Source: a virus
IMG/VR virus record: IMGVR_UViG_3300035680_001201
Span: 62,001 to 126,000 of that record
DNA: 64,000 nt
Reading direction: 5' to 3' (one strand)
The notes below the pieces were generated by a model. It ran no database searches. It saw nothing but the letters and a program-made list of their open reading frames with translations, and was not told the DNA's origin. Within the stretch, counting starts at the first letter, position 1, and every line of letters starts with the position of its first letter. Position numbers and translations under genes: made by a program. Positions 6,066 to 25,329 of this stretch are shown piece after piece.

Positions 6066-8609
6066 ATGTATCAAAACATTTATATAGATAAGAAAACAGA
6101 AACAGTGCACCTTTGGGATGACCAGAAGGGACATGTTACATTTCCAGTTCCTAAGTATGCGTATCGTAAGAAGTCAGGTGGACGTTATCGTTCTGTTTAC
6201 GGGGATGAACTAGAAAAGGTTACAAACTTTAACCGTAATGATCCTTCAATCTTTGAAGGTGATGTTCCTCCCGAAACACGGGTGTTGATTGACGCGTACG
6301 AAAACAGTGATGAACCGTCCAAAGGACATCGTATTGTCTTTTTTGACATTGAGGTTAGTTCCGAAGGTGGATTTCCCGTTATTGAGGAGGGTGATAAGGA
6401 ACTCACCGCTATTGCTTTGTACGATAGTGCTACATCCAAGTACACGGCGTTTATTTTGGATAAAGATGGCAAACTTCAAGACAGTGAAACAACAGATACA
6501 AGTATTCAAAGTTTTGACAATGAGGAATCATTAATTAGTCATTTTATGAATAAGTGGGAGGAAATCCAACCCACGATTATTACTGGATGGAATATTGATG
6601 GGTTCGACGTTCCATATCTGTATAATCGTATCAAGAGAGTGATGGGTGCCAATTTTGCTAAAAGATTGAGTCCGATTCGGGAATGTTATTATAATAACTT
6701 TGCAAAACGAATGGTTTTAGCTGGTATTTCATGTATGGACTATATTACATTGTATCAGAAGTTTAGTGGAAAAAATGAACCAAGTTATACTCTTGGTGCT
6801 ATCGGTAAGAAGGTGGTCAATATCGACAAGATCACTTATACCGGAAGCCTTAATGATTTGTATCGTGATGACATTCAAAAGTATATTGAATACAACCTTA
6901 ATGACGTTAAGATTGTGGTTGCTCTTGATAAGAAGTTACAATTCATTGATCTTGCTCGTCGTATCTGTCACACCGGGCATGTTGGTTATGAACAATTTGG
7001 AACTTCATCACGATACCTTGAAGGTGCCATATTGATGTATTTGCGTCGTCAAGGACGTGTTGCTCCGAATAAACCATTAGATGGACGTGAAGAATATGAA
7101 CAACAATTGGAAGACGGAGAAGAAGGATTTGAAGGTGCGTTTGTTAAACCTCCTGTGCCTGGTAGGTATGATTGGGTGTTTGATTTGGATCTTACATCAA
7201 TGTATCCGAATATCATTATTAGTCTTAACATTAGTCCTGAAACTAAAATAGCTAAAGTTGAAAACTGGAATGCAGAAGACTTTGTTCGTGGCAAGTTGAC
7301 AGATGTAGTATTAAGCGGACAAAAGTATTCATCACAAGAATTCAGTGACATGTTGATTCAAAATAATCTTAGTGTCGCTAGTAATGGAGCTGTCTATAAA
7401 CTTCCAAAAGGAGACGGACAAGAAGGTACGATTCCTAGTATTTTGATCAAGTGGTTTAATGAACGTAAAGAAATGCGTAAGTTGGCCAAGAAGCACGCTG
7501 ATGCAAAGGAATGGGAATTGTATGAGTTTTATGATCAACGTCAGAAAGTTCAAAAGATTTTGCTAAACTCCATTTATGGTTGTTTGGGTCTGCCAGTATT
7601 TCGATTTTATGATAAGGATAATGCTGAAGCAGTAACATTGAGTGGTGTCAGTATCATTAAGACTGCAAATATGGCCATCAACCAATATTATAAGAATGTT
7701 CTTGGTGATGAAGCAAAAGGTAAGGATTATGTTATTTACGTTGATACCGATTCTTGTTTTACTAGTGCTTTGCCTATTATTAAGAAAACGATGCCTGACA
7801 TTGATGTAAATGACGAAAAACAAATGACCGAAGCTATTCTGAAAGTTACTGCAGAAGCTCAAACATATGTTAACCAAATGTTTGATATTATGGCTCTTCG
7901 ATTATTTAACGTAAAACAACATCGTTTTGATGCAAAACAAGAAGTAATCGCCAAGTCGTCGTTTTGGTTGGCTAAGAAACGTTATTGTCAGTTCATTATT
8001 AATAAGGGTGGGGTTGAATGTGATGAACTTGAGGTCAAGGGAATTGACGTGGTGAGAACATCCTTTCCTGCCAAGTTTAGAACTTTCATGAAACAATTCT
8101 TGATTGATTTGTTGAAAAACGTTGATCAAGAAACTATCAACAACAATATTCTTCAGTTTACAGAAGATATGAAGAACTTTGGAGTGATTGAACTTGCTAA
8201 AAATACAAGTGTGAAGTTCAAGAGCGAAAAGACTAAAGCTGATTATAATCCAAAGAGTCGTCAACCATTTCAGATTGTTTCTGGAACTCCTGCCCAAGTT
8301 AAGGCAGCGTTGTATTACAACGATTTGTTGGCACAGTTTAATTTGACCAAGATTATTCCTCCGATATTTCATGGTCAGAAAATTAAGTGGGTATATCTTA
8401 AACAGAATGAATATGGAATTGAATGTTTGGCGATGAAAGCAGATGGAACTGATCCTCAACAAATTATGGATATTATTACAAAATATATGGATCGTGATAC
8501 TATGTATGAACAAGAGTTGAAGAGTAAACTTGTTGATTTCTATAAAGTTTTGAACTGGGAATATCCTAATTCAAACTGGAAAGCTGCATCTGCATTTTTT
8601 GAATTTTAA
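6066..8609 (+). CDS. DNA polymerase, family B (T4 gp43-like)
   Basis: 847 residues, against 898 in T4 gp43. The replicative polymerase with 3'-5' proofreading. Exonuclease motifs: FFDIEVSS (Asp94, Glu96), ITGWNIDGFDVPYL, and YNLNDVKIV. Polymerase motifs: A, DLTSMYPNIIIS (Asp375); B, KILLNSIYGCLG; C, YVDTDS (Asp560, Asp562). The KKRY segment lies after motif C (WLAKKRYCQF). All catalytic residues seem intact, with no intron or intein. It would work with the clamp and clamp loader at 16571-18288, from which it is separated by a carbohydrate operon. Confidence 0.97.
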   Translation: MYQNIYIDKKTETVHLWDDQKGHVTFPVPKYAYRKKSGGRYRSVYGDELEKVTNFNRNDPSIFEGDVPPETRVLIDAYENSDEPSKGHRIVFFDIEVSSEGGFPVIEEGDKELTAIALYDSATSKYTAFILDKDGKLQDSETTDTSIQSFDNEESLISHFMNKWEEIQPTIITGWNIDGFDVPYLYNRIKRVMGANFAKRLSPIRECYYNNFAKRMVLAGISCMDYITLYQKFSGKNEPSYTLGAIGKKVVNIDKITYTGSLNDLYRDDIQKYIEYNLNDVKIVVALDKKLQFIDLARRICHTGHVGYEQFGTSSRYLEGAILMYLRRQGRVAPNKPLDGREEYEQQLEDGEEGFEGAFVKPPVPGRYDWVFDLDLTSMYPNIIISLNISPETKIAKVENWNAEDFVRGKLTDVVLSGQKYSSQEFSDMLIQNNLSVASNGAVYKLPKGDGQEGTIPSILIKWFNERKEMRKLAKKHADAKEWELYEFYDQRQKVQKILLNSIYGCLGLPVFRFYDKDNAEAVTLSGVSIIKTANMAINQYYKNVLGDEAKGKDYVIYVDTDSCFTSALPIIKKTMPDIDVNDEKQMTEAILKVTAEAQTYVNQMFDIMALRLFNVKQHRFDAKQEVIAKSSFWLAKKRYCQFIINKGGVECDELEVKGIDVVRTSFPAKFRTFMKQFLIDLLKNVDQETINNNILQFTEDMKNFGVIELAKNTSVKFKSEKTKADYNPKSRQPFQIVSGTPAQVKAALYYNDLLAQFNLTKIIPPIFHGQKIKWVYLKQNEYGIECLAMKADGTDPQQIMDIITKYMDRDTMYEQELKSKLVDFYKVLNWEYPNSNWKAASAFFEF

Positions 8610-8654: not shown

Positions 8655-9554
8655 ATGAGTGATTTTACGTTTATAATTCAAGGACCATACAACACTACAC
8701 ATTTATTGATGTTAGGTAACCTTAAAAAAGAAGGAAAAGTTGTTTTGTCATGTTACATGTCTGATTTAGATAAAATTTCTGACCCAAGTGTGTATGACAT
8801 GATAATACTCAATGATATTATCGATACCAATATAGAGAAAATTTACAATTATGATAACGTATATCATCAAGTGAGATCCACGAAAAGAGCATTGTGTTCT
8901 ATAAACACTGAATATGCTGTTAAGTTCAGATCTGACTCTTTTTATTCCGGAATACCATATGTAGTAGATTCTATAAGAAAAAACTCAGAAAAGTTATCAT
9001 GTGTGCCCATCAATATTAATCCAGTATGGCCATATCAGTTTTGTGACCATGTAATGGGTGGACGAACTAAAAATTTGAAGGATACATTTGAAATAGCAGA
9101 GTCTATAATATTAACTCAAGACTTTATTTATGATGAAATTGATACTAGATTATGTCCTGTAGTATTACTTTTTGCATCTTGGCTTAAAAGTAAGAACATA
9201 AAAGGTGATGAACCTATATTTAGTTATTGGATTAAAGATTTTTATGGTACCGATCCTAGAATGGCATGGAGTCCAGACAACAAAATAAGTGTTATGGTAT
9301 ATCAGAACTATTTTGATACTGTAGTAAATAACTTAAACATACTAGATATATATAATATGGAACCGTTTTTTGCTAAAAGCAACACTGTTAAAAAAACATT
9401 CACTAAAGCAATAGATGCGATATCATGGCATGACAGTGTGTGTAAAACCGGACATAAAATGCGTGATATGAATTCATATATAAAAGCATTTTATGAATGT
9501 CATTCTGATAAAACTAAAAACTTTATTAAACCAGTAACACACTATATAAAATAA
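8655..9554 (+). CDS. WavE-like glycosyltransferase
   Basis: 299 residues. DFTFIIQGPYNTTHLLML at the start and VRSTKRALCSINTEYAVKFRSD in the first third match the WavE family of lipopolysaccharide glycosyltransferases (IQGP...; ST.G......YVLKLRTD). A second copy of the same family lies at 15253-16041 at the other end of the operon. The gene starts 45 bases after the polymerase stop in an AT-rich gap with no clear hairpin, and reads straight into the RuBisCO-like gene. The sugar and acceptor are unknown. Confidence 0.7.
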   Translation: MSDFTFIIQGPYNTTHLLMLGNLKKEGKVVLSCYMSDLDKISDPSVYDMIILNDIIDTNIEKIYNYDNVYHQVRSTKRALCSINTEYAVKFRSDSFYSGIPYVVDSIRKNSEKLSCVPININPVWPYQFCDHVMGGRTKNLKDTFEIAESIILTQDFIYDEIDTRLCPVVLLFASWLKSKNIKGDEPIFSYWIKDFYGTDPRMAWSPDNKISVMVYQNYFDTVVNNLNILDIYNMEPFFAKSNTVKKTFTKAIDAISWHDSVCKTGHKMRDMNSYIKAFYECHSDKTKNFIKPVTHYIK

Positions 9555-9557
9555 ACT

Positions 9558-10766
9558 ATGAATAAAAAAGTTATAAACGACATAGTATTGGTATCAAGTA
9601 CAAATAATAACAACGGTAACATTGTCACATACGATGTTAAATCAAAAACTAATCTTTGGGATGCTGCATATGCAATTGCAGTTGGACAGAGTGTTGGTAA
9701 TCCTGAAAAAAGATCTGAGTTTGAGTCTCGGGAATTGTTTGAAACGTATTGTGCAAAGATAATTGATACCAATAATTTTTCTGAAAAAGAAGGGTTGATT
9801 AATATCTATTATCCTGACAATAATTTCAACTACAAGGAAGATGGAATTACTCATTTCTTGACCACAATTATGGGTGGACAACTTGATATCGATATTATTC
9901 AGAAATGTCGAATTACAAATATTGAATTTTCAAAAGAGTTTGATCAGATATTCAATGGACCAAACTTGGGTCTAAAAGAAATGAGAAAATACTGTGGTGT
10001 AGATGAAAACTATCCTTTATTTGGCGGAATTATAAAGCCAAAAATTGGTTTGAATGTTAAAGATTATGTTGAGGTTGTAAAGATTTACGCCGATAACGGA
10101 TGTAACTTCATAAAAGAAGATGAAATTCTTTCCAATCAGTCATTTTGTTCTATAGAAAAACGACTTGAGAAGATTGGTGATTATCTCAGAACTAATAACA
10201 TCAAAATGGTATATGCACCATCTATAACTTGTGATCATTTATATTTAGAGGATCGTATTCGTAAAGTACATAACTTAGGTATCAACGGACTTCATATCAA
10301 CATTCATAGCGGATATGGTGCGTATAAAATGGTTAAGGATTTAAGATTGAATTTGTATCTTCATTATCAAAAGAGCGGAGATAAGATGTGGACAAATCCT
10401 CAACACAATTATTCTATCGACGAATCTGTTTTGTTTGAGATCGCAAGTCGATGTGGATGTTCTACTCTTCATGTTGGTATGATTGGTGGATATTTGGATA
10501 GTGATGAAGATAGTTTGGTTCGAACAATTAATAAGTTAGTATCATTAAATTCTGTTTCAGCATTGAGTTGTGGAATGCATCCCGGATTGGTTCAATATAT
10601 TATTAATAAGTTGGGCCATTGTAATTGGATGGCTAACGTTGGTGGCGCTATATCGTCACATCCGATGGGGAGTGCAGCTGGAGTTCGTGCAATGAAACAG
10701 TCGATTTCTGGAGAACATGGTAAGGAATATCGTAATGCAATTAAAACATGGGGACTTAAATCTTGA
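9558..10766 (+). CDS. RuBisCO-like protein (form IV type, non-carboxylating)
   Basis: 402 residues, the usual size of RuBisCO-like proteins. GGIIKPKIGLN (Lys160, Lys162) matches the KPKLGL loop. CNFIKEDE (Lys186, Asp188, Glu189) keeps the carbamylated lysine and both Mg ligands. His250 and His305 fit the barrel histidines, LSCGMH (Ser337) the phosphate-site serine, and NVGGAISSHPMG the Gly-Gly phosphate loop. Two residues needed for carboxylation appear changed: the loop-6 lysine is Tyr312 and the arginine after His250 is Ser251. Known relatives enolise or isomerise, or cleave, sugar phosphates (for example in methionine salvage and apiose breakdown). Its neighbours suggest a step in making an unusual activated sugar or polyol. 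Substrate unknown. Confidence 0.88.
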   Translation: MNKKVINDIVLVSSTNNNNGNIVTYDVKSKTNLWDAAYAIAVGQSVGNPEKRSEFESRELFETYCAKIIDTNNFSEKEGLINIYYPDNNFNYKEDGITHFLTTIMGGQLDIDIIQKCRITNIEFSKEFDQIFNGPNLGLKEMRKYCGVDENYPLFGGIIKPKIGLNVKDYVEVVKIYADNGCNFIKEDEILSNQSFCSIEKRLEKIGDYLRTNNIKMVYAPSITCDHLYLEDRIRKVHNLGINGLHINIHSGYGAYKMVKDLRLNLYLHYQKSGDKMWTNPQHNYSIDESVLFEIASRCGCSTLHVGMIGGYLDSDEDSLVRTINKLVSLNSVSALSCGMHPGLVQYIINKLGHCNWMANVGGAISSHPMGSAAGVRAMKQSISGEHGKEYRNAIKTWGLKS

Positions 10767-10768
10767 GT

Positions 10769-11485
10769 ATGAATGTTGTTATACCAGCTGCTGGATTGGG
10801 TACTAGGTTTAATACCACAATTCCAAAACCATTGTTGGATGTTAATGGATTGCCGATGTTAGCTAGAGTTATAAATAACTTTTATAATAGTGATGTAAAG
10901 TTTTTTGTATGTATTCTTAAAGAACATCAACAGAAATTTAATATTATAGATAATGTAAAAGACTACTGTGATACATCGATGGTTAAATATTTTATTATTG
11001 ATGAACTGACAGATGGGCCGGCAAGAACATCATATTTTTCAAAACCACATATTAATATTAATGAACCGTTGATTATAACAAACTGTGATCAGGTTATTTT
11101 TGACTTAGACTTAAATCGATTGATGTCTTTTGCCGAAAAGAATTCGGCAGATGGTGTACTTGGTACGTTTTATTCAAATAGTCCTAAAAACAGTTACGTT
11201 AGACTAAATGATGACGGATTAATTACACAAGTTAAAGAAAAAGAAGTAATAAGTAATTATGCTACCAATGGTCTTCATTTTTGGACAAAAGGATCTTCTT
11301 TCTTTGATTCGTGTGATGAAATGTTTTCACGAAACGACAGATCAAACAATGAGTTTTATGTTGCACCAAGTTATAACTATATGATAAAAAAAGGAATGAA
11401 AGTAGTTCAGTATTTTTTCAATGAACACTTTCCTATTGGAATACCACAAGATTTAGATAAATTTAGAAAGTTAAATTATATATGA
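10769..11485 (+). CDS. Sugar-1-phosphate nucleotidyltransferase
   Basis: 238 residues. MNVVIPAAGLGTRFNTTIPK followed by PLLDVNGLPML is the nucleotide-binding signature (GLGTRF...PKPLLDV) of the NTP transferase family, which joins NTP and a sugar 1-phosphate to make NDP-sugar and pyrophosphate. IITNCDQVIF holds the metal-binding Asp. I chose the ATG at 10769, two bases after the RuBisCO-like stop; the longer frame starts with TTG. It is a paralogue of the C-terminal domain of the protein at 13883-15250 (both end with a G.P.DL motif), so two related activated sugars may be made. Confidence 0.85.
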   Translation: MNVVIPAAGLGTRFNTTIPKPLLDVNGLPMLARVINNFYNSDVKFFVCILKEHQQKFNIIDNVKDYCDTSMVKYFIIDELTDGPARTSYFSKPHININEPLIITNCDQVIFDLDLNRLMSFAEKNSADGVLGTFYSNSPKNSYVRLNDDGLITQVKEKEVISNYATNGLHFWTKGSSFFDSCDEMFSRNDRSNNEFYVAPSYNYMIKKGMKVVQYFFNEHFPIGIPQDLDKFRKLNYI

Positions 11486-12117
11486 ACAAACAATTACAAA
11501 ATGATTTTGTACGATACACTTCCAATGGACAATTGATTCTATCCGAATACCACTGCGGTCCCGGATCTACGTTATGGTATACACGTCCTATTAGAAGTGT
11601 ATTTGTAGAGTTTTTAAAAAAACACAATATTAACAGTATGTTAGATGCTCCATGTGGAGATCATCAATGGATGAGTTTAATAAAGTTCCCAAATGAATTT
11701 GATTATATTGGAGGAGATCTTCATGAAGATATGATTTCTAGAAATAACAATATATATGGAAACAAATTTATTCAACTTGATATTACCGAAGATCAATTAC
11801 CTTCAAAAGATTTGATTTTTGTGAGAGATTGTTTGTTTCATCTTACCGATGATATGAAAAGAAAGTTTTTTAGTAATTTATTGAAAACAGACTTTAAGTT
11901 TTTACTTACATCAAATCATCCAAGATGTAATATTAATGTTCCTAATATTATAAACGGTGAAACGTTTCAAGAAATTAATTGGAATATTTCCCCTTGGAAT
12001 TTCCCAACTCCAATTGATACTATCGTGGATTATAATGAATCTGATGATAGATTTAATCCATATCCATATCGAACAATGGAACTTTGGTCTAAAGAACAAC
12101 TCGAAACAATTTTATAA
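11482..12117 (+). CDS. Class I SAM-dependent methyltransferase-like protein
   Basis: 211 residues. MLDAPCGDHQWMSLI is motif I of a Rossmann methyltransferase, EFDYIGGDL the acidic end of strand 2, and LIFVRDCLFHLTDD the post-motif region. The start overlaps the upstream stop as ATGA. In this operon it probably methylates a sugar or sugar-linked group. A second protein of similar build, with the same GPGS segment near the start, lies at 28147-28737. Confidence 0.7.
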   Translation: MNKQLQNDFVRYTSNGQLILSEYHCGPGSTLWYTRPIRSVFVEFLKKHNINSMLDAPCGDHQWMSLIKFPNEFDYIGGDLHEDMISRNNNIYGNKFIQLDITEDQLPSKDLIFVRDCLFHLTDDMKRKFFSNLLKTDFKFLLTSNHPRCNINVPNIINGETFQEINWNISPWNFPTPIDTIVDYNESDDRFNPYPYRTMELWSKEQLETIL

Positions 12118-12122
12118 ATGAT

Positions 12123-12449
12123 ATGCGAGTATTTGATTCTAAACCATTTATGGATAAAGGTGGTTGGTTTATTGGAGATTTTGAACCAACAGTGTTTAAA
12201 ACCACATCATTTGAGGTATCATATAAACTTCATCATAAAGGAGAAGATTGGCCAAAACACTATCATAAGATAAGTGAAGAAATAAACTTTCTAATTCGTG
12301 GAAAAATGACTATTAATAATACAGTTATTGATGCAGGAACCATATTTATCATTGACAGATATGAATCTGTAAAACCTATATTCTTAGAAGATTGTGAACT
12401 AATTGTTGTAAAGGTTCCATCTTCAAAGAATGACAAATACGAAAATTAA
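12123..12449 (+). CDS. Small cupin protein
   Basis: 108 residues forming one cupin barrel: KHYHKISEEINFLIRGKMTI carries the metal-binding H.H....E pattern, and DAGTIFIIDRYESVKPIF the second motif. Cupins in such operons are often isomerases, epimerases or small metal-dependent enzymes. One known RuBisCO-like pathway (Rhodospirillum rubrum) also uses a cupin, but that link here is only suggestive. The stop is three bases from the next start. Confidence 0.65.
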   Translation: MRVFDSKPFMDKGGWFIGDFEPTVFKTTSFEVSYKLHHKGEDWPKHYHKISEEINFLIRGKMTINNTVIDAGTIFIIDRYESVKPIFLEDCELIVVKVPSSKNDKYEN

Positions 12450-12451
12450 TT

Positions 12452-13084
12452 ATGTTTACGATAGATCAAAATTTATATACTCAGACCCCATCCAATATCA
12501 ATGGACTTTCTTATCTTCCATCTTTCAAAAATGAAGCTGATAACGATGTTGATTGGCCAGGACATATTGCACCATTTAATGAAATTATAGAGGAAATCAC
12601 TGATGCTAATAAAGAAGCATTGGATGATATATTGAGTAAGGTTAATGTAAAAAATGTTATTGAAATTGGTATTGCTCGTAATAATAAAAGATCGTTTACT
12701 ACACAATTACTTTACGCCAAAAAAGGTATTTATTGTGGTATTGATCTTGATGACAAGACTTTTTTGAATGATGATTTGAATCGTGTATACACAATCAAAG
12801 CTAATTCACATGATCAGGTAAATATACGTTCTTATTTAAATACCATCGGACTTCATAAGTGTTCAGTGTTGTTTATCGATGGATGGCATTCAGTGAATAC
12901 TGTTATTAATGACTGGACATATACTGACTTACTTGATGATAAAGGTGTAGTTATTTTTCATGATACTAACTATCATCCGGGACCAAATCTTGTTGTACCA
13001 GCAGTTGATCGATCTATGTATAGAGTTGTAAAGTATTGTGATGGAGGATCTGATTGGGGTATTGCTGCCGCATACAAACTGTGA
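12452..13084 (+). CDS. Methyltransferase-like protein (Methyltransf_24 / CmcI type)
   Basis: 210 residues. NVIEIGIARNNK is the SAM-binding loop, YCGIDLDD the strand-2 acid, and VLFIDGWHSVNTVINDW with VVIFHDTNYHPG matches the D.H....D pattern of Methyltransf_24 and CmcI-like enzymes. These act on small molecules, including sugars. The gene lies mid-operon and a 26-base gap follows. Confidence 0.7.
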   Translation: MFTIDQNLYTQTPSNINGLSYLPSFKNEADNDVDWPGHIAPFNEIIEEITDANKEALDDILSKVNVKNVIEIGIARNNKRSFTTQLLYAKKGIYCGIDLDDKTFLNDDLNRVYTIKANSHDQVNIRSYLNTIGLHKCSVLFIDGWHSVNTVINDWTYTDLLDDKGVVIFHDTNYHPGPNLVVPAVDRSMYRVVKYCDGGSDWGIAAAYKL

Positions 13085-13110
13085 AGGATCTAATATTACA
13101 AAATTAGTTT

Positions 13111-13872
13111 ATGAATATAGCAATTATCATTTCTGGAAGAATAGATTTGTTTGAACAATCAGTTTTTGAAAATTATAATAATATAATTAATCCATTAATT
13201 AACAATGGACACACAGTAAATATTTTCATGTCTATATGGAATCATCATGATCAAGATATGTTGTTAAGAGCATATCAACCATATGTAAAAGTTTTTGATA
13301 CTGAAACTTTTACTGATTATACAGCTGGATTGATAAAGGATATGGTTCCGTATGAAATTCTTGTAAAGTTATTTGGTCATTCTGAAGAAAATAAAGTTTC
13401 TAATACACTATACTGGATGTATAAATTAAAGCGTGCATATAAATTTGTAAAGGAATATGAACGTGTTAATAATATTGAACATGATTTGTACATTCGATTA
13501 AGACCCGATGTAACATGTTGTGATCCTATTGATATACATCAACTTACTACGTTGAATGATTCATCAATTATAGTTCATGTAGATCACATTTTGGTAAAAG
13601 ATGATAAATTTTATGGATGTGGAGAAGGTTGGATCGATGATAATTTATGTATTGCAAAACAACGACCATTTGAAACATTTTGTAATACATATGACGATAT
13701 AATAAATTTATGTTTAATGACCGGATCTTGTATATCACATATATTGTTACAAAAACAATTTGAATTAAATAATATAAAAACAATAAGACCTAATTCTCCA
13801 TTAATTATTTATCGAAAAGGTGATATTAATAATCCTGTTTTAAAATTTTATCATTTTGAACATTGTTATTAA
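13111..13872 (+). CDS. Probable glycosyltransferase-like protein
   Basis: 253 residues. MNIAIIISGRIDLFEQ, FMSIWNHHDQ and IEHDLYIRLRPDVTCCDPID resemble phage and bacterial proteins of glycan loci in which 'R.RPD' follows a predicted nucleotide-sugar fold. CGEGWIDDNLCIAK would be the acceptor-side region. No firm family can be named; I infer glycosyltransferase from fold-like pattern and operon context. Confidence 0.5.
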   Translation: MNIAIIISGRIDLFEQSVFENYNNIINPLINNGHTVNIFMSIWNHHDQDMLLRAYQPYVKVFDTETFTDYTAGLIKDMVPYEILVKLFGHSEENKVSNTLYWMYKLKRAYKFVKEYERVNNIEHDLYIRLRPDVTCCDPIDIHQLTTLNDSSIIVHVDHILVKDDKFYGCGEGWIDDNLCIAKQRPFETFCNTYDDIINLCLMTGSCISHILLQKQFELNNIKTIRPNSPLIIYRKGDINNPVLKFYHFEHCY

Positions 13873-13882
13873 ATGTACTTTT

Positions 13883-15250
13883 ATGATAAAATTAATTGTT
13901 TTTGATTTAGACGGTGTTTTGGTTGAAACTAAAAAACTTCACTATGATGCTTTAAATAAAGCGTTACGTGATGTCGATCCAAAGTATGAGATTTCATACG
14001 ATGAACATCTTGCTAAGTATGATGGACTTAGTACTCATAAAAAATTAGATTTACTTGGTCGTGAAAAAGGATTATCTGGAATGGAGTTTGAAAGTGTATG
14101 GTTTCGTAAACAAGTATACACCTCACAAATGTTACGTGAATTGACTCCGGATACAAGACTTATAGAAGTTCTCCGAAAGTTAAAACAAAAATATACTATT
14201 GCTGTTGCTAGCAATAGTATTCGTGATAGTGTTAAAATAACTCTACTAAAGTTGGGGTTATTGGAATACGTTGATTTTTATTTGTCTAATGAAGATGTAA
14301 AACATCCAAAACCACATCCTGAGATCTATTTGAGATCAATGATTCAATCAGGTGCAACACCAAAAGAAACCATTATAATTGAAGATAGTGTTATTGGACG
14401 TAATGCTGCAAACAATAGTGGTGCTTATTTACTGGGAGTAAATAATCCAACAGATGTAACGTATGAAAATATTACGGAACATATAGATTGTATCAATAAA
14501 AATACTAAAAGACCAAAATGGCAAGGAGGAAAAATGAATGTTTTAATACCAATGGCAGGCGCAGGTAGTCGATTTGAAAAGGCTGGATATACATTTCCTA
14601 AACCTTTGATTGATGTACGTGGAAAGCCCATGATTCAATGGGTAGTTGACAATTTGAACGTAGACGCCAAGTATATTTTTATTGTTCAGAAAAGTCATTT
14701 TGAAAAGTACAACCTTAAAGATACACTTGATAATTTCTGTCCAAATAATAAAATTGTTCAGATTGAAGGAATTACCGAAGGTGCTGCTTGTACGACACTA
14801 TTAGCAAAACAATATATTAATAAGGATGAACCTTTGATTATTGCCAACAGTGATCAATTTGTTGAGTGGAATAACGAAGAGTTTATTTATACATCTACCA
14901 CTGGAGATTTAGATGGTAATATTCTTACGTTTAAATCTACACACCCCAAGTGGAGTTATGCAAAAATCAATGAATTAGGATATGTGACTGAAGTTGCTGA
15001 AAAACGTCCTATAAGTGATATTGCGACTGTAGGCATATACTATTGGAGAAAGGGCAGTGACTATGTTAAGTATGCTGAACAAATGATTCAAAAGAACATT
15101 CGTGTCAACAATGAATTTTATGTGTGTCCGGTCTTCAATGAAGCCATTTCTGACGGTAAAAAGGTTCGTACATTTAATATTGAAAAGATGTGGGGTCTTG
15201 GAACCCCTGAAGATTTAGAAAATTTTTTAAAAAATTACGAAAAACATTAA
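13883..15250 (+). CDS. HAD phosphatase fused to sugar nucleotidyltransferase
   Basis: 455 residues. Residues 1-210 are a HAD hydrolase of the beta-phosphoglucomutase / phosphoglycolate phosphatase type: FDLDGVLVE (motif I), VASNS (II), KHPKPHPEIY (III lysine) and IIIEDSVIG (IV). Residues 218-455 are an NTP transferase: MNVLIPMAGAGSRF, FPKPLIDVRGKPM, IIANSDQFV and GLGTPEDL. A phosphatase and a nucleotidyltransferase in one chain suggest sequential steps on a sugar phosphate, as in heptose or polyol activation. The ATG at 13883 is used; the longer frame starts TTG and overlaps the previous gene. A strong ribosome-binding site sits inside the gene before residue 218. Confidence 0.85.
   Translation: MIKLIVFDLDGVLVETKKLHYDALNKALRDVDPKYEISYDEHLAKYDGLSTHKKLDLLGREKGLSGMEFESVWFRKQVYTSQMLRELTPDTRLIEVLRKLKQKYTIAVASNSIRDSVKITLLKLGLLEYVDFYLSNEDVKHPKPHPEIYLRSMIQSGATPKETIIIEDSVIGRNAANNSGAYLLGVNNPTDVTYENITEHIDCINKNTKRPKWQGGKMNVLIPMAGAGSRFEKAGYTFPKPLIDVRGKPMIQWVVDNLNVDAKYIFIVQKSHFEKYNLKDTLDNFCPNNKIVQIEGITEGAACTTLLAKQYINKDEPLIIANSDQFVEWNNEEFIYTSTTGDLDGNILTFKSTHPKWSYAKINELGYVTEVAEKRPISDIATVGIYYWRKGSDYVKYAEQMIQKNIRVNNEFYVCPVFNEAISDGKKVRTFNIEKMWGLGTPEDLENFLKNYEKH
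14524..14536 (+). promoter_or_regulatory. Internal Shine-Dalgarno and ATG at the HAD/nucleotidyltransferase junction
   Basis: AGGAGG followed by four A bases and the ATG at 14534 lies exactly at the start of the nucleotidyltransferase domain and is translated in frame as Gln-Gly-Gly-Lys-Met. Most genes here lack such a site. It looks like the start of a once separate gene and may still give a shorter nucleotidyltransferase. Confidence 0.55.
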
Positions 15251-15252
15251 AT

Positions 15253-16041
15253 ATGCTCGGTGATTTTACATTTATAATTCATGGAAATTATGATGAAACG
15301 CACATTCCTATGTGTGCCGAATTAAAACGATTTGGTAAAGTCATATTATCGACCAATAAAAAATATATGGACCATGTTTCACAACATGCAAATCATTATG
15401 ATAAAATAATATGTGAATCGGATATAGATGTTACCAATATATACAATCATCAGAATATCTATCTTCATATCAACTCAGTATTAAATGGATTGCGTCAGTG
15501 TGATACTCAATATGTTGTAAAAGTTAGAACAAATCATTGTTATTCAAATATTCAATATCTTGTAAATAAAGTAAGATCAAATATAAATGATAAATATTTG
15601 TGTAGTAATATTGCTGTAAATCCAGAATTTCCATATCATCCATGTGATAATATTATTGCTGGAACTAAAGAATTGGTTTTTTCTATATACAAAACAGCTT
15701 ATAGTAGTATATTAGCTGAAGATTTTATATATCAAGACAATGATATACGAATGTGTGCTGAAGTTTTATTGTTCATTTCATATCTTAAATATAAAAACAT
15801 TAAAATAAATAAAATCAATGGAAACTCATATTTTTATGTTGATGGTATAAGAAATGGTATGGTAATTCATGGTTACATTAGTGATCAATACAGATCTATA
15901 ATGAAAGAAAATTTAGAATTAATTGACGTTGAGAATTTAGCACCATATGTTATAAATTTTAATAGTCATACATTTGATGTTATTTTTAGAAATATTAAAA
16001 ATGTGGATGAACTATTAAGTAAAACAAATTTGAACTTTTAA
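15253..16041 (+). CDS. WavE-like glycosyltransferase, second copy
   Basis: 262 residues. LGDFTFIIHGNYDETHIPMC and NSVLNGLRQCDTQYVVKVRT match the protein at 8655-9554 and the WavE family, and EDFIYQDNDIRMCAEVLLF matches that protein's QDFIYDEIDTRLCPVVLLF. The usual IQGP is IHGN and the RTD is RTN, so the catalytic site may differ. It starts two bases after the fusion gene's stop. The two copies bracket the sugar-activation genes. Confidence 0.65.
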   Translation: MLGDFTFIIHGNYDETHIPMCAELKRFGKVILSTNKKYMDHVSQHANHYDKIICESDIDVTNIYNHQNIYLHINSVLNGLRQCDTQYVVKVRTNHCYSNIQYLVNKVRSNINDKYLCSNIAVNPEFPYHPCDNIIAGTKELVFSIYKTAYSSILAEDFIYQDNDIRMCAEVLLFISYLKYKNIKINKINGNSYFYVDGIRNGMVIHGYISDQYRSIMKENLELIDVENLAPYVINFNSHTFDVIFRNIKNVDELLSKTNLNF

Positions 16042-16057
16042 GTAAAACGAATTGTGT

Positions 16058-16519
16058 ATGAAATACATCTCTCATAGAGGCAATCTAAGTGGTCCAAATT
16101 CAGACAAAGAAAATCATCCCGATTATATTAAAAAAGCATTAAAATTGGATTATGATGTTGAAATTGACGTGTGGTATACTGATGAAAAGTGGTATTTGGG
16201 ACACGATAGTCCAACGTATCAAGTAAAATATGATTTTCTAACAGATCGAAGATTTTGGTTACATGCCAAAAATGGTGATGCATTTAATTTGTTGGTACAA
16301 GACTATACAGTAAATGTATTTTGGCATACCACTGAAGATTGGGTTTTAACCAGCAAGAGATTTATATGGACGTATCCTGGCAAGCAATTATATCCTGAAA
16401 GTGTGTGTGTTTTGCCAGAACACTCATGGGTGGGAGATCTTACAAAATGCCACGCAGTATGTACTGACTTTGTAAAAGAATTTCCAGAACAGTTTGAGGA
16501 AGAATACTGGATAAATTAA
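16058..16519 (+). CDS. GDPD-like phosphodiesterase domain protein
   Basis: About 153 residues. YISHRGNLSGPNSDKENHPD and YDVEIDVWY resemble the His-Arg and Glu-x-Asp metal site of glycerophosphodiester phosphodiesterases, and WYLGHDSPTYQV the later histidine. It is short for a full TIM-barrel enzyme (about 240 residues or more) but ends in a coherent way. It may act on a glycerol- or polyol-phosphodiester in the glycan made by this operon. I start at the ATG at 16058; the longer frame begins TTG. Confidence 0.55.
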   Translation: MKYISHRGNLSGPNSDKENHPDYIKKALKLDYDVEIDVWYTDEKWYLGHDSPTYQVKYDFLTDRRFWLHAKNGDAFNLLVQDYTVNVFWHTTEDWVLTSKRFIWTYPGKQLYPESVCVLPEHSWVGDLTKCHAVCTDFVKEFPEQFEEEYWIN

Positions 16520-17319: not shown

Positions 17320-18288
17320 ATGGATGCCTTTTTTGAAGAGGTGAGTCATACCGACGATAAGAAGGTTCATAGTTTGTGGGTTGAAAAGTATCGACCCACA
17401 ATTATTGAAGATTATATCGGAAATGAAAACATCATAACCACAATTAAGAGTTATATTGACCAGCAGAACATTCCACATTTGATGTTGTATGGCGGTGCTG
17501 GTACTGGAAAGACAACGTTGGCTAAACTGTTGACTAAACAGATCAACTGTGATGTATTGTATATCAACGCATCTGATGAAAATAAGGTTGAGAATGTTCG
17601 AACCAAGATTAAGAGTTTTGCATCATGTGTGGGTATCAAACCGCTGAAGATTATTATTCTGGACGAGTGTGATTATATGTCACCAGAGGCACAAGCGGCT
17701 CTTCGTAACCTTATGGAGACGTTTAGTATGTCTACGAGGTTTATTCTGACATGTAACTATCATGAGAAGATGATTCTTCCCATTGTATCACGTTGTATGA
17801 CCTTTGAGATTGCTCCGATGACTAAGGTTTCGGTTGCGGTACATTTGACTAAGATTCTTAAGTCAGAAAACGTTGAATATCAGAATGATGATTTGGCGTA
17901 TATCGTAAACACATATTATCCGGATATTCGTAAGATTATTAATGTGGCACAACAATCTACTTTTGAAGGTAAGTTGAAGGTTAATAAGGATTCTTCGTTG
18001 AAAACTGACACACATCAAAAGTTGGTGGACATGATTAAGAATGGTATTGGTAAGCCAAATGCCTTTAATGATATTCGACAATTTGTTGTGGATCAGCGTA
18101 TCAAAGTGTATGATGATTATTTCTCAGTGTTGTATCAGAAGGTTGATGATTATGCTAATGGTAAGCAGGCAATAGCTACGATTATTATCTCTGAGTATAT
18201 GTATCAATGTAGTTTGTTGATTCCTCCATTGAAAGAAATTGCTTTGATGGCATGTATTAGTAAACTTTTAACAGATTTGAGAAAATGA
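17320..18288 (+). CDS. Clamp-loader ATPase (T4 gp44-like)
   Basis: 322 residues, AAA+ ATPase of the RFC small-subunit type. KYRPTIIEDYIGNENI is the RFC N-terminal box. Walker A is GGAGTGKTT, Walker B IIILDECDYM, and IVSRCMTFEI the SRC arginine finger. It opens and loads the clamp encoded five bases upstream. The partner subunit gp62 is not recognisable in the next gene, which is far too short. Confidence 0.95.
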   Translation: MDAFFEEVSHTDDKKVHSLWVEKYRPTIIEDYIGNENIITTIKSYIDQQNIPHLMLYGGAGTGKTTLAKLLTKQINCDVLYINASDENKVENVRTKIKSFASCVGIKPLKIIILDECDYMSPEAQAALRNLMETFSMSTRFILTCNYHEKMILPIVSRCMTFEIAPMTKVSVAVHLTKILKSENVEYQNDDLAYIVNTYYPDIRKIINVAQQSTFEGKLKVNKDSSLKTDTHQKLVDMIKNGIGKPNAFNDIRQFVVDQRIKVYDDYFSVLYQKVDDYANGKQAIATIIISEYMYQCSLLIPPLKEIALMACISKLLTDLRK

Positions 18289-19315: not shown

Positions 19316-19900
19316 ATGGGAATGTATGATGACATAGTATGTAAATACCCTCTTCCTTTACCAGAAGATACTAAAGGATTTCACCCATGTGGATTTCAAA
19401 CCAAAGATTTAGATAATGCTTTAGATTGTTATGAAATCCGTGAAGATGGCACACTATGGTTGCGTGAATGTGAACGTGAATATACTGAAGGCAATCCGGA
19501 TGGTAAAACATGGTCAGAAAAGTTTGGTATTGTAAAAGAAATCAAAGTTTGGTGGACTCATGTAAAAACAACCAGAACCATACGTATCTATGATTATAAC
19601 AATTATAATGATGGACCATATGACTATTGGGTTGAATTTGAAATTGAATTTGTTGACGGCGTTATTAACAAGATTAACCTTGTAAAGTTTGAAGCCACTG
19701 ATAACGCTAAAAGAAAAGAAAATGATAGACGATTCATTGAAGAACTTAAAAAGAACAAAGAGTTTGAATCTACTAATTTTTATAAATTACTAATCAAACC
19801 ATATAACAAAGTAGTTAGATTTTGGACAAGACAAGTGAGTAAATTTGCCACTCTTTTGTTAAGTGTTTGTTATAAGATTGAAAGAAAACTGGTTATATGA
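19316..19900 (+). CDS. Conserved phage/bacterial protein of unknown function
   Basis: 194 residues. MGMYDDIVCKYPLPLPEDTK, then CGFQTKDLDNALDCYEIREDG and TLWLRECEREY form a recognisable N-terminal pattern of an uncharacterised family seen in phages and bacteria. A basic, partly hydrophobic C-terminal stretch (FATLLLSVCYKIERKLVI) may contact a membrane. Its stop overlaps the start of the large glycosyltransferase (ATGA), so it may head that operon. Confidence 0.65.
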   Translation: MGMYDDIVCKYPLPLPEDTKGFHPCGFQTKDLDNALDCYEIREDGTLWLRECEREYTEGNPDGKTWSEKFGIVKEIKVWWTHVKTTRTIRIYDYNNYNDGPYDYWVEFEIEFVDGVINKINLVKFEATDNAKRKENDRRFIEELKKNKEFESTNFYKLLIKPYNKVVRFWTRQVSKFATLLLSVCYKIERKLVI

Positions 19901-22365
19901 ATTTGAAAATGTTTGATATTTTGCCGGAATATATTCAGTGTATGAACCAGACCGATGGTGTTTGTTATATATACCAGTCGGGTGTTAGTGGCTATGCTAA
20001 TGCAGCTAAAGGTTATATCTATGATTTATTAAAAAAAGTAAACGTAGTTACTAAACCGTGCGAATTTGATCAAACTCATGTAATTGAGTCTGGAGAGTTT
20101 GAACAAACAATTAAAACACTTACAAATAACAATGTTGTATATAAAAATATAATTGTTCATTCTACACCGGACATGTGGGATTATTTGATTGATAAGACCG
20201 AAGTTAAAATTCATAATCGAAATATCATTGGTAGAACTGTTTGGGAGTTTGATCCTCTTATTCCAAATTGGGTAAATGCAATAAACAAAAGCATTGTAAA
20301 AATTGTTAGTGTTCCTACAGAATGGAACAAACAGGTTTTTGAACGTAGCGGAGTTACAAAACCTATTATTGTTGAACCACATATAAATGTTACGTTTCCA
20401 TATACTAAGGTTGATTTAAAGAAACTAATTGAAGATAAAGGAGAAGTCCTTTACAATGGAGATTTTTCTCAATTTGATTTACAATCATCATATAAGTTTT
20501 ATACCATCGGTCAATATATTACACGTAAAGGAATATCAGAAACAATAAAAGCGTATTGTGAATCGTTCAATCAGACTGATACCGTAATACTGTTTGTTAA
20601 AACGTTTGGGTTTGATTATTCAGAGTTACAGAAAGAGGACTGTAGACGGAAAATTAAAAATATAATTGGAGAATCGAATGTTCCTCCGATTGTTTTTTTG
20701 AAAGAAATGTTCACTTATGATGAAATACAATCTCTTCATGAACAATGTGATTGTTATGTGCAGTTAACACGATCTGAAGGTGTAGGTTTAGGAATTTTTG
20801 AAGCGTACAATAGAGGAAAAAAAGTTATTGTTACAAACCATGGTGGTCATGTTGAGTTTCTTCCGAATAATTATGAAGGGTTGGTTGATTGTGAATTGGT
20901 ACCCGTAAAAGATAGTATATTTTACAATCTCGATCTCGACAAAACATATCTTTGGGCAAAACCTTCGATTAAACATGCTGTAGAAAAGATTAAAATTATG
21001 GCTGACATTAGTAGTACAGTTAGTCATATGACCAATAATACACCATTTCCACTAATTTTAAATAGTGGATGGTATGATTTAGAATTATATCAAAATGTCC
21101 ACTTCAGATGGATGCATCTGAAATCATCTATTGACGTTATTGATAATAATGATTATGATTCGGTAACACTAGTTTTTGGTAACCATGTAAATCGAAAAAC
21201 AATAAAATCATATGTAGTATCATCTCATGACGAATCAAAAACTCTTGTATCAGAAAAAGTATGTGAAATTGGAGAACAATGTTATATACGTATACCGTTG
21301 GTCAATACAAAACAAATATTGATTGAGAGTGATTCTTATTACTGTCCGTATGAAAGTGGAAACAGTGAAGATCGTCGAAAATTATCAATCATGATGTTTA
21401 AATTTGAATTTGAAAAAAATAATAATCATTTTATACAATCTATAGAGAGTGTTACTCATATAAAAGACAATTCACATTTTCAAATTACATTTGATAGTCA
21501 TGTAACAACAAATACTAACGCACATTTTGAATATGACAGTGTTATACTACCAAATGTTAGTAGTAGAGTAACAAATGGAATTTTGTTGTATTTACCAAAT
21601 CTTATTGGAAAACACGCCAAAACTTTAGATAATCTAAGTCAATATAAACACTCTATTAACGATTCAAAAATCGTGGTGTATACAGATGGCAGTATAGATG
21701 GATTCGATAAATATCCTTTTGAATTTATACAGATTGATCCTTTACCAATAATGTATGACGGGATGATGCCTGTACATTACAAGTATGCTACATGGGCATT
21801 TTTTGAAGGAATAAAGATCGCTAAGAGCAAAATGTGGGATTATTTTTTTTGTTACGAATGGGATTGTATGATAGGGAAAGACTATTGGTATGACACCTTG
21901 TGGCAAGAACATTTGAGTTGGCCATATGAACCTATCATGACTGGTACACCTGTATTCAAATGTCCATTAAAAGGTGTTGGTAATTTGTTACAGGGATCAA
22001 TGGATTATAGATACAAGTATTCCAAAGATTGTGGATTATACATGAATATAGAACATGTAAATCCTACTGCATTATATACAAATGGTGCATTAACTTTTTA
22101 CAATACAAATAATACCGCAAAATATTTTCAACCAGAACTTGAATTTTATGGAGATGTATCATCATATATGAATACAATAACCAGTTGGGACTTGGAAATT
22201 GGAATACGATTATTCAAAGAATACGGAGAAAAATCGTTTGAAAAGGTTGGTTGGTTGCCATCGTCATACTCTGGATGTGGTGATTATTATTACAACCAAA
22301 CACAAAGAGAATTAATGATCGATACTGGACAAAAAGTAGTAATACACCAATATAAATATTTATGA
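19897..22365 (+). CDS. Large two-domain glycosyltransferase (GT-B plus GT-A-like)
   Basis: 822 residues. Residues 1-370 are a GT-B enzyme: YQSGVSGYANAAKGYIYD, FYTIGQYITRKGI, and the donor site LTRSEGVGLGIFEAYNRGKK. A linker of about 190 residues rich in beta strands follows. The C-terminal 270 residues (IVVYTDGSIDGFDKYPFE, FFCYEWDCMIGKDYW, YTNGALTFYN) look like a GT-A-type domain with an E.D metal site. Two activities in one chain could add two sugars in sequence. Start overlaps the upstream stop as ATGA. Confidence 0.7.
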   Translation: MNLKMFDILPEYIQCMNQTDGVCYIYQSGVSGYANAAKGYIYDLLKKVNVVTKPCEFDQTHVIESGEFEQTIKTLTNNNVVYKNIIVHSTPDMWDYLIDKTEVKIHNRNIIGRTVWEFDPLIPNWVNAINKSIVKIVSVPTEWNKQVFERSGVTKPIIVEPHINVTFPYTKVDLKKLIEDKGEVLYNGDFSQFDLQSSYKFYTIGQYITRKGISETIKAYCESFNQTDTVILFVKTFGFDYSELQKEDCRRKIKNIIGESNVPPIVFLKEMFTYDEIQSLHEQCDCYVQLTRSEGVGLGIFEAYNRGKKVIVTNHGGHVEFLPNNYEGLVDCELVPVKDSIFYNLDLDKTYLWAKPSIKHAVEKIKIMADISSTVSHMTNNTPFPLILNSGWYDLELYQNVHFRWMHLKSSIDVIDNNDYDSVTLVFGNHVNRKTIKSYVVSSHDESKTLVSEKVCEIGEQCYIRIPLVNTKQILIESDSYYCPYESGNSEDRRKLSIMMFKFEFEKNNNHFIQSIESVTHIKDNSHFQITFDSHVTTNTNAHFEYDSVILPNVSSRVTNGILLYLPNLIGKHAKTLDNLSQYKHSINDSKIVVYTDGSIDGFDKYPFEFIQIDPLPIMYDGMMPVHYKYATWAFFEGIKIAKSKMWDYFFCYEWDCMIGKDYWYDTLWQEHLSWPYEPIMTGTPVFKCPLKGVGNLLQGSMDYRYKYSKDCGLYMNIEHVNPTALYTNGALTFYNTNNTAKYFQPELEFYGDVSSYMNTITSWDLEIGIRLFKEYGEKSFEKVGWLPSSYSGCGDYYYNQTQRELMIDTGQKVVIHQYKYL

Positions 22366-23048
22366 ACGTATACGCATTTTATGAACCAATTGAGGAAAAT
22401 TGGGTTAATAAGACCGATCAAAAAATTTTGATTGATTTGTGGAAGAAAAGTTGGTCTAGATATGGATGGAATCCTGTTATTATTACATTAGATGATGCAA
22501 AAGAACATCCATTGTATTACGAGTTCTATAAAAAAATAGAAAGTTTTCCAACAGTGTGTCCTAAAATTTATGACATGTATTGTTTTCTAAGATGGTTGAG
22601 TTTCGCAAAATATGGTGGATGGATGAGTGCAGTGTCGGTAATGAACTACGGATTTGTACCTGCTAATTTTGAAGATCAAGTTGTAACATCACATGGTTAC
22701 CCATTTTTGGTTCCTACTGCTGCAATACATATACCCAAACATAAGATCGAGACTATTATAGATATAATTATGAACTATACTGTTAATGAAAATGATGTTA
22801 TCCCAGTAGCAGGTATTGATAAACCACATATATCTGATATGATTATTCTGAATAGAAAGCTGGGTCTTTTAAATTTTATTGATGTAAAACTTGATGTTTC
22901 ATCGTCTTATAAACCAGAAGAAAACTGGCAAAAATCTTCAATTGTTCATTATCCCGTACCAACGCCATATATGTATGGTGATAGAGACAAACACAAAACA
23001 AGAACACAAGTCATTTTAGAAGACATCCGATGGAAAAACATACCATGA
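22362..23048 (+). CDS. Glycosyltransferase-like protein without a clear DXD motif
   Basis: 228 residues. KIYDMYCFLRWLSFAKYGGW matches the region before the DXD motif in GT32-type and capsule glycosyltransferases, where the next residues are usually DxD. Here they read MSAVSVMNYG. It may be inactive or use other residues. ATGA overlap with the upstream gene, and its stop overlaps the aminotransferase start. Confidence 0.6.
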   Translation: MNVYAFYEPIEENWVNKTDQKILIDLWKKSWSRYGWNPVIITLDDAKEHPLYYEFYKKIESFPTVCPKIYDMYCFLRWLSFAKYGGWMSAVSVMNYGFVPANFEDQVVTSHGYPFLVPTAAIHIPKHKIETIIDIIMNYTVNENDVIPVAGIDKPHISDMIILNRKLGLLNFIDVKLDVSSSYKPEENWQKSSIVHYPVPTPYMYGDRDKHKTRTQVILEDIRWKNIP

Positions 23049-24130
23049 ATACAAAAATACCACTTTTTTACCCATATATTCCCAAAGAAAAAATCCTCAA
23101 AGAAATAGAAGATACATTGAATGGTCGGTGGTTGGGACAGGGGCCAAAAGTAAATCAGTTTGAACAAAAATTTAATACTGTGTTTGGTTATAAACACTCA
23201 CTGATGTTGAATTCGGGAACGTCTGCTCTGGAGTTGGCATACCACCTTATAGGAATCAAAGAAGGAGACGAAGTAATTGTTCCTATTTTGGATTGTACTG
23301 CTGGACAAATGGGATTGAAACGTAAAGGTGTAAATATTGTATTCGCTGATATTGATAGTAATCTAAACATCGATCCAGAGGATGTAATTAAAAAAATAAC
23401 AACTAAGACTAAGGCAATTGTTGGTGTACATTTGGGTGGTATTCCTTTTAGTTCAAAAATAAACGACATTTGTAAACAATACAATATTCCTTTAATCGTT
23501 GATGCAGCGCAACATTTTGCTCATTGCGAAGGTGATTATATTTGTTATTCATTTCAAGCCATAAAACATTTTACAACATGTGATGGTGGTATGCTCGTAT
23601 TGAATGATGAAAGTACCTACAACCGAGCCAAACTTTTACGATGGTTTGGTATTGATAGAGAGTTGAAGGAAAAGAAAAATTACCAAGCATGGGAACGACG
23701 TGAAATGACATTTGACGTGTATGAAGCTGGATTCAAGTTTCAACCTACCGATATCGATGCGTGTTTTGGTTTGGCAGCAATTGATGATTTGGAAGTTATT
23801 ATTTCTCATAGAAAGAAACTAGCAGAACTGTATTTGAAAAGTCTTCCATCACAGTGTAAACCAATTTGTGGAGGAACATATTGGTTGATGGGTATTTTGA
23901 CAGAAAATCGAGATGAACTTGCACAATACTTAACATCAAATGATATTGACAATAATCTTGTTCATTTGCGAAATGACATTTATCACATCTTTGGTGGTAC
24001 ACGGTTAGATTTACCAATGATGAACAGTATTGAACCAAACTATTTGTATTTGCCCCTCAACACAAAAGTTACTGAACATGATGTGTTGTTTGTCTGTGAT
24101 ACAATCAGAATATTTTTCAAAAAAGTATGA
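23045..24130 (+). CDS. DegT/DnrJ/EryC1-type PLP aminotransferase
   Basis: 361 residues. Converts a keto-sugar on a nucleotide carrier to an amino sugar using glutamate. GRWLGQGPKVNQFEQKF and LNSGTSALELAYHLIGIKEG are typical, IVDAAQHFA gives the PLP ring Asp, and FQAIKHFTTCDGGM holds the PLP lysine. I use the ATG at 23045 because it gives the ATGA overlap common here; an ATG at 23030 is also possible. With the GDP-mannose dehydratase at 42050 and the acetyltransferase at 24849, it could make GDP-perosamine or a similar 4-amino sugar. Confidence 0.9.
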   Translation: MNTKIPLFYPYIPKEKILKEIEDTLNGRWLGQGPKVNQFEQKFNTVFGYKHSLMLNSGTSALELAYHLIGIKEGDEVIVPILDCTAGQMGLKRKGVNIVFADIDSNLNIDPEDVIKKITTKTKAIVGVHLGGIPFSSKINDICKQYNIPLIVDAAQHFAHCEGDYICYSFQAIKHFTTCDGGMLVLNDESTYNRAKLLRWFGIDRELKEKKNYQAWERREMTFDVYEAGFKFQPTDIDACFGLAAIDDLEVIISHRKKLAELYLKSLPSQCKPICGGTYWLMGILTENRDELAQYLTSNDIDNNLVHLRNDIYHIFGGTRLDLPMMNSIEPNYLYLPLNTKVTEHDVLFVCDTIRIFFKKV

Positions 24131-25328: not shown

Positions 25329-25329
25329 T

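Follow-up and report, generated by a model that had tools for sequence, protein, structure and literature searches.

The locus described here lies in a window of 64,000 nucleotides taken from a viral sequence record (IMG/VR IMGVR_UViG_3300035680_001201, positions 62,001 to 126,000). An open reading frame on the plus strand of this window, confirmed at positions 9558-10766, encodes a protein of 402 residues. The protein matched the Pfam model RuBisCO_large (PF00016) at 6.5e-28 (98.3 bits, cut-off 30.1) and the model RuBisCO_large_N at 1.3e-5 (25.8 bits, cut-off 20.7). As both the catalytic and the N-terminal model scored above their curated cut-offs, the product is a genuine member of the RuBisCO superfamily, as had already been proposed in an earlier reading of the DNA from its letters (the sequence-only reading). 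It is referred to as the RuBisCO-like protein (RLP). The surrounding genes are as follows.

6066-8609, plus strand: phage DNA polymerase, upstream context (phrog_262, 1e-170)
8655-9554, plus strand: WavE-like protein, 299 aa, upstream neighbour (weak Pfam WavE match, 0.0019, below cut-off)
9558-10766, plus strand: RLP, 402 aa (Pfam, AlphaFold2, Foldseek, 61-member alignment)
10763-11485, plus strand: standalone sugar-phosphate nucleotidyltransferase (NTase), 240 aa (Pfam NTP_transferase, 5.9e-10; phrog_3980, 4.7e-52)
11482-12117, plus strand: methyltransferase-like protein, 211 aa (phrog_3382 methyltransferase, 7.3e-38)
12123-12449, plus strand: small cupin, 108 aa (phrog_24762, 1.6e-29; weak Pfam Cupin_7 match)
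12452-13084, plus strand: Methyltransferase_24-like protein, 210 aa (Pfam, 1.9e-4, below cut-off)
13111-13872, plus strand: protein of 253 aa, family unassigned (phrog_13607, 5.3e-11)
13856-15250, plus strand: fusion of a HAD domain (beta-phosphoglucomutase-like) and an NTase, 464 aa (Pfam HAD_2, 3e-29; NTP_transferase, 4.7e-10)
15253-16041, plus strand: WavE-like protein, 262 aa (weak Pfam WavE match, 4.4e-4, below cut-off)
16052-16519, plus strand: small GDPD-like phosphodiesterase, 155 aa (phrog_34507, 9.1e-26)
17320-18288, plus strand: phage clamp loader, downstream context (phrog_168, 1.2e-74)

The glycan cluster (8655-16519) is inserted between the DNA polymerase and clamp-loader genes, and two further loci (L003 and L004) use the same position. 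The start of the standalone NTase gene overlaps the stop of the RLP gene. The methyltransferase-like protein at 11482-12117 had homologues in 4 of 94 sequences searched and is not conserved in the module, and the Methyltransferase_24-like gene, occurring in 26 of 93 RLP loci, is frequent without belonging to the core. Homologues of the 253-residue protein were present near the RLP gene in 53 of these 93 loci. The cupin bears an HxH...E metal-binding pattern, the two WavE-like proteins are homologous to each other (one blast cluster), and a cyanophage relative of the protein at 16052-16519 is annotated as glycerophosphoryl diester phosphodiesterase. In the GDPD-like protein of the window, the HR, ExD, and His motifs are intact and HxK replaces the usual ExK.

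A second glycan-type stretch, comprising GT4, DegT aminotransferase, GH130-like, GT25, and methyltransferase genes, occupies positions 19897-30151 of the window. In another phage locus (L009:123-5600), NeuB-like, TPP (acetolactate-synthase-like), SDR, DHQ-synthase-like, and kinase-like genes stand in a row, which suggests synthesis of another unusual sugar or cyclitol. The TPP enzyme and the DHQ-synthase-like and NeuB-like proteins, encoded next to the RLP gene in L009, were considered as pathway partners of the RLP and dropped, being present in few RLP loci.

Fold and active site of the RLP

Six NCBIfam models of RuBisCO or RLP groups matched the protein, all far below their curated cut-offs, which places it outside these six named groups; no PHROGs family was found for it. 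The top sequence match in the PDB was the type III RuBisCO 3a13 (5.3e-31). An AlphaFold2 model, for which 60 relatives of the RLP served as input, reached a pLDDT of 94.7 and a pTM of 0.92 and displays the two-domain RuBisCO fold, an N-terminal domain followed by a beta/alpha barrel. Foldseek returned type III RuBisCOs at E-values of about 1e-32 (8dht, 1.3e-32) and with TM-scores of 0.86-0.89 (2d69_D, 0.89). The RLP thus has its fold in common with the type III enzymes of Thermococcus kodakarensis (3a12/3a13) and Pyrococcus horikoshii (2d69), with a TM-score of about 0.88, but is somewhat smaller (402 versus about 440 residues). Measured against copies of 79% identity, dN/dS was about 0.08, and the gene is under purifying selection.

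Active-site residues were surveyed in an alignment of 61 dereplicated clade members and by alignment with RuBisCO, whose positions are given in spinach numbering. The KPK loop (160-162, with lysines 160 and 162), the metal triad Lys186-Asp188-Glu189, and residues Ser337, Gly339, and Gly362-Gly363 were invariant in all 61 sequences, while position 305 was His in 55 and Gln in 6. The KPK loop, the carbamate-lysine/Asp/Glu site, the Gly-Gly phosphate loop, and His327 are common to type III RuBisCO and the RLP. In contrast, the loop-6 lysine K334 is replaced by Tyr312 and its partner E60 by G43 in every member. Likewise fixed throughout the 61 sequences are the replacements of T65 by N48, W66 by P49, N123 by G107, H294 by Q271, and H298 by D275, and the equivalent of R295 is an invariant Lys272, so that HxQKSGD stands where RuBisCO has HxHRAxH.

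The alignment bore out most of what the sequence-only reading had assigned, namely KPK, Lys186/Asp188/Glu189, His305, Ser337, the Gly-Gly pair, and Tyr312 in place of the loop-6 lysine. Its placing of the active-site arginine at Ser251 was an alignment slip, the true equivalent being Lys272, and its list of replaced residues was right for loop 6 but missed E60, T65, W66, N123, H294, and H298. The RLP is therefore a RuBisCO homologue in which residues essential to a carboxylase, K334 with E60 as well as N123, H294, R295, and H298, are substituted. This pattern, being common to all 61 members, supports the classification as a form-IV-type, non-carboxylase protein that had been suggested before. 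With E60, T65, W66, N123, R295, and the loop-6 lysine lost, CO2 fixation by the RLP clade is very unlikely. By established RuBisCO chemistry, the residues kept would suit phosphate binding and metal-stabilized enediolate formation, and those lost would be the ones that hold or gate CO2.

Distribution of the RLP clade and its gene neighbours

In a profile scan of IMG/VR, relatives of the RLP were found on at least 237 contigs, 80 of which were kept. Scanning 84,980 bacterial and archaeal species genomes yielded ten RLP loci, which belong to single-cell genomes of SAR11 and other alphaproteobacteria, a metagenome-assembled genome of the Crocinitomicaceae (Bacteroidota), and Azospirillum oleiclasticum. 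A clade member was present in 2 of 297 genomes sampled from the SAR11 order, and no member beyond those already known turned up in the whole genomes of 346 Bacteroidota and 399 Pseudomonadota that were sampled, the weaker matches there being acid-sugar RLPs. Within the Azospirillum family, the clade member scored 315 bits and all other RuBisCO relatives at most 116 bits. The clade is virus-dominated and rare in cells, and hundreds of aquatic phages carry this RuBisCO relative, which had no earlier characterization. A tblastn search of the RLP against 50,697 GenBank phages gave zero matches, and no viral RuBisCO fold was found in the viral structure library BFVD (best TM-score about 0.40). Alignments of form I, form II, acid-sugar RLPs, and MtnW, scanned against IMG/VR by means of short peptide patterns and with form III left out, did not retrieve any contig.

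A maximum-likelihood tree set the RLP clade, with a support of 100 and a long stem of 0.85, apart from forms I, II, and III, MtnW, and the acid-sugar RLPs. After midpoint rooting, the nearest branch consisted of MtnW and one Azospirillum RLP. MtnW/YkrW, the form IV enolase of 2,3-diketo-5-methylthiopentyl-1-phosphate, has the fold, the metal site, and the loss of E60 and the loop-6 lysine in common with the RLP, but it differs by KGVIG instead of KPK-G, a lysine at the N123 position, and HPAVSG. The RLP reached 98.1 bits against the cut-off of 513.6 of the MtnW model (TIGR03332) and falls outside the MtnW branch. Form IV proteins of the OiaX type, which are linked to four-carbon-acid sugar kinases and act on sugar-acid phosphates according to the literature, share the RuBisCO fold and the FIKDDE metal motif with the RLP. 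Unlike the RLP of the window, they keep E60, N123, and R295, have KPSVG and NKF, and occur in catabolic operons; they form a separate clade on the tree, and against the model of OiaX (3-oxo-isoapionate-4-phosphate decarboxylase) the RLP scored 98.2 bits, the cut-off being 700. The RLP clade may overlap with the ocean-sampling RLPs named sub-clade IV-GOS (from Tabita et al. 2007, as cited in PMC10173188) and with the new RuBisCO groups that Yooseph et al. 2007 (PMC1821046) described from the ocean. Like the RLP clade, these are RuBisCO relatives from ocean metagenomes without known function; unlike it, they are not described as viral or by gene context in the passages cited here.

Within six genes of the RLP gene, an NTase was encoded in 90 of the 93 loci, a small GDPD-like protein in 78, and a small cupin in 68, the cupin being missing from about a quarter. 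In 55 of 60 dereplicated loci, the NTase was at most three genes away. The RLP-linked NTases keep the motifs GxGxRF, PKP, NcDQ, EK, and NnEfY, the metal site of the cupin is conserved, and H8, R9, E37, D39, H51, H71, and K73 of the GDPD-like protein were invariant in 25 sequences. Distances between RLPs correlated with those between their NTases (Mantel r = 0.57; 0 of 500 permutations as high), cupins (r = 0.32; 0 of 500), and GDPD-like proteins (r = 0.23; 3 of 500), values that also rise if whole operons are co-inherited. The RLP-linked NTases clustered on the NTase tree, requiring 7 label changes compared to a mean of 33 and a minimum of 23 after shuffling, so that the neighbouring NTase belongs to one co-evolving subgroup. 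The GDPD-like enzyme, by comparison, was present on at least 593 viral contigs and is thus far commoner than the RLP, indicating that their pairing is loose; it is very common in phage glycan loci. Taken together, the Mantel correlations and the clustering of the NTases indicate that RLP, standalone NTase, and cupin form the core and that the GDPD-like enzyme is a looser partner.

The association extends to cellular genomes. In Azospirillum, the GDPD, RLP, cupin, and NTase genes are all adjacent, in this order, and in the SAR11 genome SAG-MED47 the genes for GDPD, NTase, and RLP lie within a polysaccharide-type locus on a 232-kb contig. In the SAR11 locus L092, an NTase-like protein adjoining the RLP (L092:4930-5667) is devoid of the GxGxR signature and is possibly a non-catalytic partner; a normal NTase is encoded on the other side. 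Based on linkage and co-evolution, we consider it well supported that the RLP has co-evolved with a sugar-activating NTase and has a role in activated-sugar synthesis.

This conclusion partly modifies the sequence-only reading, in which the RLP was thought to work with the adjacent nucleotidyltransferases and a HAD phosphatase. The link to an NTase held (90 of 93 loci, covariation, and bacterial polysaccharide-type loci), but the HAD did not prove to be a tight partner. That position is taken by the standalone NTase at 10763-11485, along with the cupin, while the HAD domain is fused to the second NTase (13856-15250), a type of fusion commoner in phage loci without the RLP. The GDPD-like gene at 16052-16519 had been overlooked. 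The comparisons proposed at that stage yielded a significant RuBisCO-family match in a clade separate from forms I, II, and III, MtnW, and acid-sugar RLPs, a predicted RuBisCO barrel, and relatives that adjoin NTases, also in Azospirillum and SAR11. The outcomes that had been named as fatal, namely no profile match, a different fold, or relatives never found next to sugar NTases, did not occur.

Proposed role of the RLP

In 76 GDPD loci without the RLP, the NTase is mostly fused to a HAD domain, as is the second NTase of the window. ALTERNATIVES to the RLP, other pentose- or ketose-phosphate enzymes, were encoded in 12 of these 76 loci: either RpiB, in most cases joined to the NTase in one protein, or a class II aldolase, or a fusion of the latter with PRK. 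RpiB, the PRK-aldolase fusion, class II aldolase, and 3,4-dihydroxy-2-butanone-4-phosphate (DHBP) synthase were each found in none of the 93 RLP loci. Fusions of an NTase with an RpiB/LacAB isomerase were seen at L184:6516-7691, L195:6519-7679, L193:9761-10933, L131:2781-3938, and L130:4817-5974, the RpiB part being confirmed by Pfam in L184, L131, and two more and by similarity in L130. Such fusions occur in the cultured cyanophage SynMITS9220M01 and several contigs. In viral contigs and cultured cyanophages alike, they usually follow genes for a PfkB-like kinase and a small HAD phosphatase. At L183:5702-7171 and in four similar loci, a phosphoribulokinase/uridine-kinase domain is fused to a class II aldolase domain, adjoining an NTase and a GDPD-like gene. 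Cyanophage S-SKS1 has an NTase-DHBP synthase fusion (L133:5007-6434) whose neighbours are a transaldolase and a small HAD, with no GDPD recognized in the stretch examined; the fusion suggests an NDP-linked C4 ketose as product. Among the cyanophages S-CAM9, S-SM2, Bellamy, SynMITS9220M01, and S-SKS1, NTases related to that of the RLP module are located in glycan loci, with a GDPD-like enzyme in all but S-SKS1 and a cupin in some. These modules are without the RLP and have RpiB, DHBP synthase, or class II aldolase (the latter in S-SM2 and Bellamy) where such an enzyme is present. The RLP may fill a slot of this kind and provide the NTase with a particular phosphate of a pentulose or related ketose. 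The swap is suggestive only, because no more than 12 of 76 loci had such an alternative and these loci lack independence. RpiB, aldolases, and DHBP synthase catalyse different reactions and so are informative about the class of substrate, but not about the reaction.

We therefore favour, with a probability of about 0.6, that a non-carboxylating, virus-dominated RuBisCO clade supplies a sugar phosphate to a dedicated NTase. In the proposed mechanism, Mg2+ would be coordinated by Asp188, Glu189, and Lys186, the latter after carbamylation by CO2. One phosphate of a ketose phosphate would anchor it at the Gly362-Gly363/Gly339 site, and the metal, Lys160, and Lys162 would drive formation of the enediolate. 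Because loop 6 has Tyr312 instead of Lys334, which gates CO2 in RuBisCO, and because Glu60, Asn123, and Arg295 are gone, the enediolate would not be carboxylated and would instead be re-protonated (isomerization or epimerization) or cleaved. The adjacent NTase would turn the product into an NDP-sugar or NDP-polyol, the cupin probably isomerizing or epimerizing a sugar on the same route and the GDPD-like enzyme handling a phosphodiester, and neighbouring glycosyltransferases would put the product into a surface or virion glycan. We infer pentulose phosphates as the substrate class, and likewise reaction, product, and destination; in the best reading, the ketose phosphate that the RLP enolizes is probably that of a pentulose, and the NTase would activate it for a glycan. 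More broadly, we see an even chance that a mainly viral lineage of the RuBisCO fold has turned anabolic. It would belong to a set of interchangeable pentose-phosphate enzymes coupled to related NTases in phage glycan loci, and the sugar phosphate that it makes would be activated to a new nucleotide-linked ketose or polyol.

The pathway might be the same and the RLP might break a C-C bond, acting as a retro-Claisen, decarboxylase, or DHBP-synthase-like enzyme that yields a shorter ketose phosphate in the manner of OiaX. This is unlikely. In its favour, the DHBP synthase of the S-SKS1 fusion cleaves a C-C bond of ribulose-5-phosphate, similar loci of S-SM2 and Bellamy encode class II aldolases, and OiaX is among the NCBIfam matches of the RLP, far below its cut-off. 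However, RpiB fused to the NTase represents pure isomerization, and the residues KPSVG, HRNGW, and NKF of the acid-sugar RLPs are missing from the RLP. It is quite unlikely that the sugar serves hypermodification of phage DNA bases or virion proteins and not a cell-surface glycan: the same genes are found in Azospirillum and, in SAR11, at polysaccharide-type loci of the chromosome, and the phage neighbourhood is rich in LPS-type genes (WavE-like, GT25, DegT, GT4). Three points would fit such a use: most carriers are phages, the operon is flanked by the genes for DNA polymerase and the clamp loader, and the window has a thymidylate-synthase-family gene at 47883-49067. Action of the RLP after the NTase, altering the ring of a nucleotide-bound or polymer-bound sugar, strikes us as distinctly improbable. 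The tight co-evolution of RLP and NTase fits either order, the RuBisCO P2-site residues are changed in the RLP, and many sugar modifications are known that occur at the NDP level. On the other hand, characterized members of the RuBisCO family act on free phosphorylated ketoses or sugar acids, and the phosphate-binding glycines on the barrel side are invariant.

That the RLP is a working RuBisCO, an auxiliary metabolic gene product fixing CO2 during infection, is scarcely credible. RuBisCO fold and metal site are present, and viral rbcL genes have been interpreted as carbon-fixation genes (PMC8506154, PMC12615777, PMC13288924, PMC13390420); however, all 61 members have replacements at Lys334, E60, N123, R295, H294, and H298, the RLP loci yielded no PRK domain, no small subunit was recognized among the window neighbours, and the RLP genes cluster with glycan enzymes. 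We give just as little credence to the capture by phages of MtnW, from methionine salvage, or of an acid-sugar catabolic enzyme of the OiaX type. Superfamily similarity would fit such an origin, but scores of 98 bits lie far from the MtnW and OiaX cut-offs, clade and active-site pattern differ, and neither an mtn gene nor a four-carbon-acid kinase was recognized among the window neighbours. Methionine salvage, CO2 fixation, and acid-sugar catabolism were dropped as functions of the RLP on the basis of NCBIfam scores, tree, and active site.

Significance for viral rbcL genes

Our search of the open-access literature found no description of an RLP-NTase system and nothing on xylulose O-polysaccharide biosynthesis. 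A landfill study placed viral RbcL with RbcL-like proteins (PMC12607003), and activity has been reported for a soil-virus rbcL1 (PMC12615777). As the profiles of four other RuBisCO and RLP groups retrieved no IMG/VR contig and the RLP clade at least 237, published claims of carbon fixation by viral rbcL deserve re-examination. Given the lost CO2-fixation residues and the co-evolution with the NTase, viral "rbcL" genes of the RLP type probably build unusual surface-glycan sugars and do not fix carbon. If a mainly viral lineage of the RuBisCO fold has indeed turned anabolic, most of the viral rbcL genes that environmental surveys count towards carbon fixation would be RLP genes. The clade bears directly on viral ecology; although most of its members are viral, it was not found in the GenBank phage collection or the viral structure library searched. 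As far as is known, RuBisCO-like proteins take part in methionine salvage or the breakdown of sugar acids. For the RuBisCO fold, a link with nucleotide-sugar synthesis would be a new job, and it would imply that an unknown activated sugar exists.
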